A DNA stretch of 64,000 bases from Geomonas sp. RF6. Lineage in GTDB: Bacteria; Desulfobacterota; Desulfuromonadia; Geobacterales; Geobacteraceae. The notes below the pieces were generated by a model. That model saw only the letters and a program-made list of their open reading frames with translations. It was not told where the DNA came from and did not search any database. The DNA lies in contig NZ_CP087999.1 in NCBI RefSeq assembly GCF_021044625.1, positions 637,001 to 701,000 of the forward strand, in the 5' to 3' direction. This document shows positions 34,816-36,267 of the stretch, piece after piece; positions within the stretch are counted from its first letter, which is position 1; each line of letters begins with the position of its first letter. Both the position numbers and the translations under genes were made by a program.

Positions 34816-35328
34816 TTAGTTGTAATCGACTGAAACTATGAGACTTGCGGTGTACGCTCCGGAGGCCTGCCCATCCGCAACTGCGAGGGAGCCGCCGATA
34901 TTCAGGGTCTGGGTGCCGCCGGCAGAAAGTGTACCGGTGGTGCCGATGTTGTTTGTCAGAGTGGCCACCATCTTGTTTGCACCGTTCATCAGGTCGAGGG
35001 TAGCCGGTACGCTGATGGAGTAGGTGGCGCTCGGCTCACCGGAGATATCGAATGCCGCTGCCGATGGCGCGGTCCCGCTGGAGGCGAGAGCCACCGCTCC
35101 GGTCTTCGTCCTTGCGCCGGCATTGTCGACCACCACCGTACCTGCTCCGGCAAGGAAGCTGCCGAAGTTCAAGTCACCAGTCTTGAGGATCTGGATCGGT
35201 ACGATCACTTTGCCGTTTGCCGCGGCAGTTGCCGAGGCAGCATGGCTGTCGTTGACGTTCACGATGCAAGCAATTGCTGCACACCCAGCGATGAAAAAGA
35301 GCTTCCTGAATATGTTTTGAGTTTTCAT
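34816..35328 (-). CDS. DUF4402 pilin-like subunit, probable major
   Basis: A 170-residue secreted protein: signal peptide (about 1-30, ending SHAAS), then a DUF4402 domain with KTGDLNFGSFLAGAG near 49, several Ala/Gly/Thr-rich strands, and the C-terminal strand ASLIVSVDYN. Composition (Ala, Gly, Ser, Thr; no mature Cys) fits a fibre subunit. It is the first gene of the pilin-chaperone-usher operon and has a 400-base leader with two structured RNA units; its AGGAGAGAGG site lies in the closing stem of the nearer unit. Confidence 0.85.
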   Translation of the reverse strand: MKTQNIFRKLFFIAGCAAIACIVNVNDSHAASATAAANGKVIVPIQILKTGDLNFGSFLAGAGTVVVDNAGARTKTGAVALASSGTAPSAAAFDISGEPSATYSISVPATLDLMNGANKMVATLTNNIGTTGTLSAGGTQTLNIGGSLAVADGQASGAYTASLIVSVDYN

Positions 35329-35332
35329 TCCT

Positions 35333-35498
35333 CTCTCCTTTGTGTTCAGTCACACGGTTTTCGGCGGGCAGCCTTGCTGCCTTGCCTACGAAGATCACTG
35401 ATCCAGGAGGGAGAGTACTTTTTACTCTCCATGGGGTTCAGTCACACAGTTGTCGGCGGCCACGACGGCCGCCTGGAAGATCACTGTCCAGGGGAGAG
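35333..35498 (-). promoter_or_regulatory. Tandem structured leader of the pilin gene (candidate riboswitch pair)
   Basis: Two related units, read on the minus strand: distal 35498-35425 and proximal 35415-35333. Each is closed by CUCUCC/GGAGAG and has conserved blocks CAGUGAUCUUC and GUGUGACUGAAC around a hairpin whose sequence differs while its pairing is kept (GGCGGCC/GGCCGCC in one; GGCAGC/GCUGCC in the other). The proximal GGAGAG is the Shine-Dalgarno region of the pilin. The GGAGAGUA ending the distal unit and UACUCUCC beginning the proximal unit form a perfect 8-bp hairpin (35410-35430) that excludes both closing stems. No known riboswitch consensus was recognised. Confidence 0.72.
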
Positions 35499-35749
35499 CT
35501 GCGCCAACTCACCGTGTCGGAGGTGCTCTACAGAGGGTCCGGTACTGGCTCGGCTCCTCGCCTCCACTCTTTCGGCTTATGCGGGCGCGGTTCTTTCCGT
35601 ACGGAGCATCTTTCTTCATACGAGCCCCCTTGCGCTTTGCACAGTCGAACTGGTTGTGTTTCTGTTGGTCTGATTTGCGTGATCTGGATTCTGAAACAAA
35701 AAGAAACTGTGGCGGGATCCCGGTGACTAGCCCTTTCTGGACAAGATTA

Positions 35750-35755
35750 AATATA
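35750..35755 (-). promoter_or_regulatory. Possible -10 element for the pilin leader transcript
   Basis: TATATT on the minus strand within an AT-rich stretch. No good -35 was found, which suits an activator-dependent promoter. Transcription from here would give a leader of about 415 bases. The CRP-like site would be centred near -71. Confidence 0.3.
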
Positions 35756-35804
35756 TCCAACGCCATACAAAGGACTAGGGAAAATTCCCTATCCATTGAT
35801 GAAT

Positions 35805-35824
35805 TTTGTGACGTCCGTCACAAA
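35805..35824. promoter_or_regulatory. CRP/FNR-type operator
   Basis: Contains TGTGA-N6-TCACA in a longer palindrome with TTTGTGACG and CGTCACAAA arms, palindromic except at the two central bases. It exactly matches the half-sites of the CRP class and lies upstream of the pilin leader. A second palindrome, AGGGAA/TTCCCT, is at 35777-35790. Confidence 0.6.
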
Positions 35825-35890
35825 CTTTAACGATCTTTTTCGGGTGGAGAGGAGGGGGTCGTTGCGCTGCAGCGAAGGGAGGAGGTGGAG

Positions 35891-36157
35891 CTAGTTGAAA
35901 TCGATGGAGACGGTGAAGGTCCCGTTCGATTCCGTTACCTGCGTCTGTCGGGAAGCTTCCGGGCCTGCTGTACTTTTCTGCGTGGCGGCGCTTCCAGCAG
36001 CCGTCATGCTGGCCGTGTCCAGGAGGGCTGATTCTGTGGGGGAGATGACCTGCGCGGATGCGGTTGCCCGCCCCTGCGCCGCTTCGGCTGCGCGTGGCGC
36101 TGCAGCCATCAGAAGGAGGAGGTAGATGATGCCGAATGTTTTGGTGGACCGTTTCAT
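35891..36157 (-). CDS. Short secreted protein with a pilin-like C-terminal strand
   Basis: An 88-residue protein with a signal peptide (about 1-26, ending AEA). The mature part is low-complexity (Ala, Ser, Thr) and ends in GTFTVSIDFN, matching the last beta-strand of the two DUF4402 pilins nearby, but the central LxFGxF region is absent. It may be a shortened pilin, a donor-strand peptide or a remnant. The start at 36157 has only a weak GAGG site; a longer frame to 36205 is less likely because it would move the signal peptide inward. Confidence 0.5.
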   Translation of the reverse strand: MKRSTKTFGIIYLLLLMAAAPRAAEAAQGRATASAQVISPTESALLDTASMTAAGSAATQKSTAGPEASRQTQVTESNGTFTVSIDFN

Positions 36158-36267
36158 ATCGTGCCTCGGGCTGGACTGCCCGGGTATCAGCACGCATGAG
36201 GCCACACCCGAAACTGCTGCAGATACGGCAACATACCACGAACTAGAGGGGAGTTGCGACGTGTCCT

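Follow-up and report, generated by a model that had tools for sequence, protein, structure and literature searches.

The closest described counterparts of the leader analysed here are open reading frames (ORFs) upstream of an operon whose small products carry an arrest motif of the RAPP type near the C-terminus. Ribosome arrest at RAPP is reported to have been demonstrated by structures (PMC10951233). In CruR, RAPP occupies residues 139-142 of 145, three residues from the C-terminus, is required for expression of the downstream gene, and keeps the operon transcribed by blocking Rho (PMC9426467). RAPP-like motifs are described as avoided in proteomes and as lying near the C-terminus of small proteins encoded upstream of genes of diverse function, and the arrest is described in the same report as resistant to EF-P (PMC12992588). 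RPPP was among the RAPP-like strings sought in two proteomes in another study (PMC10987492). Structured RNAs form a second class of leader: GEMM-type riboswitches of Geobacter are reported to be frequent before c-type cytochrome genes (PMC2700814). The literature searched, in which few subscription papers were covered, had no account of how operons described as DUF4402 are regulated. A search for leader peptides and ribosome stalling in a chaperone-usher context returned no literature beyond a broad review.

The locus described here lies in a window of 64,000 nucleotides from the genome of Geomonas sp. RF6 (NZ_CP087999.1, positions 637,001 to 701,000), and all coordinates below are positions in this window. 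Two genes on the minus strand match the DUF4402 family (PF14352), the first at 35328-34816 (E 8.7e-25) and the second at 34734-34243 (E 5e-28). They are followed on the same strand by a candidate PapD-like chaperone (34233-33406), whose PapD_N score of 21.6 bits is below the cut-off of 23, and by a large protein in the usher position (33402-30727). The latter has no Pfam usher match at E 0.001; that it is a divergent usher is a guess. Gene order and domain matches suggest a pilus-type, chaperone-usher-like DUF4402 operon.

A promoter-like site, TTGGATATATTTAATC (35760-35745, minus strand), is conserved in relatives and is specific to the operon. The sequence TTRGATATATTTAATC occurs once per genome in nine of 48 family genomes, namely that of the window and eight of the nine others with related operon DUF4402 genes, and is absent from the other 39. 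A consensus scan for sigma-70-type sites between 35250 and 36000 picked out none, the conserved promoter-like site included. Because 35760-35745 is the sole conserved promoter-like site, its position suggests that the leader is probably transcribed through both of the folded units described below. The palindrome TGTGA-N6-TCACA (35822-35807, no strand) lies 46 bases upstream of this site; we take it to be CRP/FNR-like, which suggests an activator of the CRP/FNR family. Upstream of the leader, 35891-36205 (minus strand) encodes a small protein that contains a signal-like stretch and is unmatched in Pfam at E 0.001; its GTFTVSIDFN end resembles, by eye, the C-terminus of DUF4402 proteins.

The leader contains an ORF of 36 amino acids (35619-35509, minus strand), overlooked in a sequence-only reading of this DNA that had drawn attention to the leader. 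A G-rich run resembling a Shine-Dalgarno (SD) sequence precedes its start, which lies 138 nt after the start of the GATATATTTAATC motif. The ORF reads MKKDAPYGKNRARISRKSGGEEPSQYRTLCRAPPTR-stop and so has the C-terminal end RAPP-TR-stop, with RAPP at residues 31-34, two residues from the end. Its stop codon is at 35511-35509, and it ends 10 nt 5' of the distal folded unit. Among 20,000 shuffles of the leader, an ORF of at least 25 amino acids appeared at that place in 2573 and was accompanied by an SD in 343. An SD together with PP after residue 20 was found in 75, and an SD together with R[AP]PP in three, the last motif having been picked after RAPP had been seen. The codon score of the ORF, -3.8, is lower than that of all 2000 sampled gene stretches (mean 10.5) and higher than those of its other five frames (-8 to -12). 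The peptide has no hydrophobic stretch, the highest mean hydropathy of any 11 residues being -0.94, so that export sensing, which is usual for such peptides, does not fit. The window's peptide is outside the export-sensing branch of RAPP-type peptides.

A related first DUF4402 gene with a second match next to it was found in nine further genomes of the family, which all belong to genus g7. Eight of them (L006-L009 and L011-L014) have an ORF preceded by a GAGG-type SD; it begins 146-156 nt downstream of the first base of GATATATTTAATC, and from the ORF start to that of the pilin gene is a further 144-172 nt. The remaining locus, L010 (G026), has the DUF4402 pair and was excluded from the peptide and leader comparisons, being without the promoter-like site and the leader ORF. 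The peptides of these eight end in H[HQ]GRGRPPP, and their ORF is itself a candidate for an arrest leader peptide of the polyproline or RAPP-like kind. Variable positions over its last 11 codons number ten at third, three at first and one at second positions; because third positions vary most there, the comparison indicates that the relatives' leader peptide is protein-coding and under selection. The signal is less strong when the full aligned ORF is considered: of 25 codons, 19 vary at the third position, 12 at the first and 10 at the second, and summation over pairs gives 129 synonymous against 211 nonsynonymous codon differences. The degenerate H[HQ]GRGRPPP pattern has one match in each of eight of 277 class genomes and none in the other 269, the window's own included. 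In place and motif the window ORF is a counterpart of this peptide. Common descent is not indicated; 1112 of 3000 shuffles of the window ORF align with the relatives' peptides as well as the ORF itself.

The relatives' leaders were also compared at the level of RNA pairing. Over the SD of the leader ORF they share a hairpin that is 96.5% paired, with changes on both sides in three of 18 pairs; 32 of 500 shuffles attain this count, whereas no slid version out of six does. A helix over their pilin start codon was rejected as a candidate: 97.9% of cells pair, no change occurs on both sides, and all 500 of 500 shuffles do equally well. Predicted folds gave no consistent pairing partner for the ribosome site in the eight relatives.

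In the window, two folded units separate the leader ORF from the first DUF4402 gene, a distal one at 35498-35425 and a proximal one at 35415-35333, both on the minus strand. The order within each unit is CTCTCC (first bases at 35498 and 35415), CAGTGATCTTC (35486 and 35400), an apical hairpin, GTGTGACTGAAC (35447 and 35355) and GGAGAG (35430 and 35338), and the two repeated blocks are spaced 86 and 92 nt apart between units. The proximal GGAGAG is 4 nt 5' of the DUF4402 ATG (35328) and falls within the predicted ribosome binding site of the gene (AAGGAGAG, 35340-35333, minus strand). Local alignment of the two units scores 60, and the best of 2000 shuffles of the proximal unit scores 31; the units are a real tandem repeat. 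Their positions, common closing arms and conserved blocks agree with the sequence-only reading, as does the perfect 8-bp middle hairpin between them (35430-35410, minus strand). Two further parts of that observation, covariation between the units and release of the ribosome site by the middle hairpin, were not confirmed.

Covariation had been read from the apical hairpins, which were said to differ in sequence while keeping their pairing. The distal hairpin has 7 bp and a 5-nt loop; the proximal one has 3+6 bp, interrupted by an internal loop, and is capped by a loop of 3 nt. By our reading of the sequence alignment the two pair in different registers and in different columns, and no column-wise covariation is seen between the copies. 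What differs is stem length and register. The CUCUCC/GGAGAG and CAGU/ACUG pairs are identical in both copies and therefore cannot covary. The apical segments themselves fold to -16.3 (distal) and -14.7 (proximal) kcal/mol, and only nine and 26 of 2000 shuffles, respectively, fold as well.

The closing stems are present in the minimum free energy (MFE) fold when either unit is folded by itself, as had been proposed, but have a pairing probability of at most 0.05 in the proposed register when the units are folded together. Eight more downstream bases are sufficient to move the closing stem of the proximal unit to a shifted register. In the free 180-nt fold (-71.6 kcal/mol) GGAGAG, the ribosome site, is paired with the distal CUCUCC region at the same time as the middle hairpin is formed; the middle hairpin, which had been thought to free this site, does not do so. 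Forcing both closing stems gives -64.2 kcal/mol, and forcing the distal one alone gives -65.8 kcal/mol with the proximal stem then in the shifted register. Keeping GGAGAG unpaired gives -63.1 kcal/mol, at an ensemble-energy cost of 7.7. In a 351-nt context the free fold has -120.6 kcal/mol, as against -114.1 with both closing stems forced (a gap of 6.5), -116.5 with the distal stem forced (4.1) and -116.4 with the ribosome site free (4.2).

Folding was repeated over 63 choices of RNA ends. The bound of 0.05 on the closing stems comes from this set, in which the middle hairpin reaches at least 0.97 in all folds that cover it, the ribosome site is paired at 0.43 to 0.93 on average, and the cost of opening the site ranges from 1.0 to 8.8 kcal/mol. 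A structured leader 5' of the DUF4402 gene is thereby borne out, with the ribosome site paired in most of the folds. The opening cost depends on the edge of the RNA. For an RNA whose 3' end is at 35325, a shift of the 5' edge from 35499 to 35492 lowers it from 7.6 to 1.6 kcal/mol, and when more coding RNA is folded the same edge effect is smaller (from 3.6 to 2.8 and from 5.6 to 3.0 kcal/mol). In the whole leader without a ribosome, the predicted cost is 1.0 to 3.3 kcal/mol, a low value that speaks against a tight lock. All of these folds are in silico and at equilibrium; co-transcriptionally, the distal closing stem could come first.

These results bear on the argument for a built-in switch, which rested on the mutually exclusive pairings of the two units. 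Any duplicated hairpin permits arm-to-arm pairing across its copies, and the arms seen here cross-pair for that reason, so an alternative pairing is by itself no sign of a designed switch. Over and above bare cross-pairing of the arms, the middle hairpin adds a 5-nt loop and two further pairs. As a whole, the case for a switch is weak.

The best explanation, to which we assign a probability of a little over one third, is a lineage-specific structured 5' region that is controlled by the leader ORF and acts after transcription start. In this scheme a leader of about 410 nt would control the DUF4402 chaperone-usher-like operon, and the tandem units, its 3' part, would have arisen by duplication of a hairpin. 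The units would be mainly cross-paired, with the middle hairpin formed and the ribosome site base-paired either with the distal arm or with RNA close by, and this fold would keep pilin translation low. A ribosome would translate the short leader ORF and pause at the C-terminal RAPP. The ORF would then be the sensor, and the tandem units either the downstream structure through which it acts or a stretch for Rho action.

The spacing between ORF and units suggests how such control might work. The footprint of a ribosome usually extends about 15 nt ahead of the P site. A ribosome at the stop codon would thus extend to about 35499, which borders the distal CUCUCC arm (35498), and would favour opening of the ribosome site; one paused at RAPP would reach about 35508, about ten bases short of the distal arm. 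Alternatively, the paused ribosome may protect the RNA downstream of it against Rho, in the way published for CruR (PMC9426467). Translation of the ORF with stalling, the response of the units, the direction of the effect and the signal are what we infer, and under this explanation the leader probably tunes the amount of pilin made.

A simpler account, possible though on balance unlikely, is that a hairpin was duplicated in the leader of one lineage and has no specific role except to lengthen and fold the untranslated region, the apparent switch being ordinary tandem pairing. The distribution of the units fits this account. The core pattern has no match in the 47 other family genomes, and a shorter core pattern has none in 140 other genomes of the order. 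A covariance model of the two units, R2, found the two known copies alone above chance in the 48 family genomes; this run used stricter filters, which lose weak matches. It returned 15 weak matches in 12 other genomes (E 0.11-0.88 per genome), of which the nine inspected were all judged to be chance and rejected as relatives. The model gave no further match in the window below E 0.09 and none at the nine relatives' loci below E 3.4. Viral contigs had no match to the core pattern, and plasmids yielded one match of 36 bases. In a collection of 84,980 species, which may omit near relatives, the pattern had two matches, in Ligilactobacillus and Pseudomonas; these were not inspected and were counted as chance, about 14 being expected by our own arithmetic. 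No third copy, as would be sought for a dispersed repeat of the REP or MITE type, was found in the genome with the pattern or with the model at E up to 1. The DNA upstream of seven DUF4402 loci in four more distant genomes showed no similar leader by eye. Across the collections searched, the units are therefore found in one genome only, in two copies, and because they are known from that one genome, selection on them is unproven.

The same account draws on the eight relatives, which share the promoter-like site and are without the tandem units. The sequence-only reading had named loss of the units from homologous leaders as evidence against itself, and to that extent the relatives tell against it in part. 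Identical arms would also suffice for the cross-pairing. Moreover, the 180-nt stretch with the units is strongly folded for its composition (z -4.2, and -3.8 in a rerun) but is not alone in this within the window, since four of 320 other sampled 180-nt stretches have a z as low or lower in the rerun. Against mere duplication stand the apical hairpins, which differ in sequence yet beat nearly all of their shuffles, the blocks that remained identical while the remainder diverged, and the fact that the ribosome site belongs to the repeat. A more elaborate proposal, which we regard as doubtful, would combine an arrest peptide and a dimer RNA switch in one device, in which ribosome traffic on an arrest-type leader ORF picks between two folds of the duplicated hairpin and thereby sets pilin translation in this lineage.

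The sequence-only reading favoured a tandem ligand-sensing RNA, a translational riboswitch of an undescribed class, and this now appears improbable. Such an RNA would display what is seen here: two similar units, variable hairpins flanked by conserved blocks, units that overlap the ribosome site, and a closing stem in the MFE fold of each unit alone. The absence of covariation, the scarcely populated closing stems of the units folded together and the lack of a homologue in the collections searched argue against it. Rfam likewise gave no match in the window at gathering scores, three unrelated chance matches alone in 35200-35900 at E up to 10, and no match at the nine relatives' loci. No result shows the units to be a riboswitch, and that reading is unsupported.

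Slightly less probable again is a protein-binding leader, in which the units would be operators for an RNA-binding regulator or for an autoregulating product of the operon. Two operator sites would fit both the 86- and 92-nt spacing of the repeated blocks and the way in which the units overlap the ribosome site. However, no candidate protein was identified, and CsrA, the commonest such regulator of leaders, was not found in the genome (no matches, in a search whose control was positive in three of 14). Very improbable is a relay of ribosomes to the pilin gene through two tiny coupled ORFs (35512-35438 and 35432-35346, minus strand), which are open in the same phase, both end in Cys-Asp-stop, and start 4 nt inside and 5 nt after the preceding stop (the first overlapping the stop of the leader ORF by GTGA), but which have no SD before either, show no third-position bias in copy-to-copy changes judged by eye, and are not beyond chance: among 20,000 shuffles 807 gave a chain of this kind, and among 20,000 tandem-copy controls 1892 did.

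In eight genomes the operon is accompanied by a leader peptide whose end is polyproline, and in a ninth an ORF with RAPP near its end occupies about the same place. If control by the leader ORF is borne out, arrest-type leader ORFs would be found to serve surface-fibre genes as well and to include short peptides that lack an export signal, and such short peptides would have to sense something other than secretion. The tandem units would then show a leader gaining, through duplication, an RNA element that it did not have before.

Comparison with described systems places the locus closest to the RAPP-type arrest-peptide leaders ApdA, ApdP and CruR, with which it shares a small upstream ORF and RAPP near the C-terminus. 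Unlike those peptides, that of the window has 36 amino acids, is basic, and has neither a hydrophobic stretch nor CXXC; the operon is of the pilus type, ORF and gene are separated by a structured region of 180 nt, and stalling is a prediction. Tandem riboswitches (PMC9481103) resemble the locus in that a pair of similar folded units follow one another in a 5' leader and overlap expression signals, whereas the units here match no known class, have no homologue in the collections searched and no assigned ligand, and hardly populate their closing stems in joint folds. The GEMM-type riboswitches of Geobacter are likewise 5' elements of genes, in probably related bacteria (PMC2700814), but differ from the present leader in that the window has no Rfam match.
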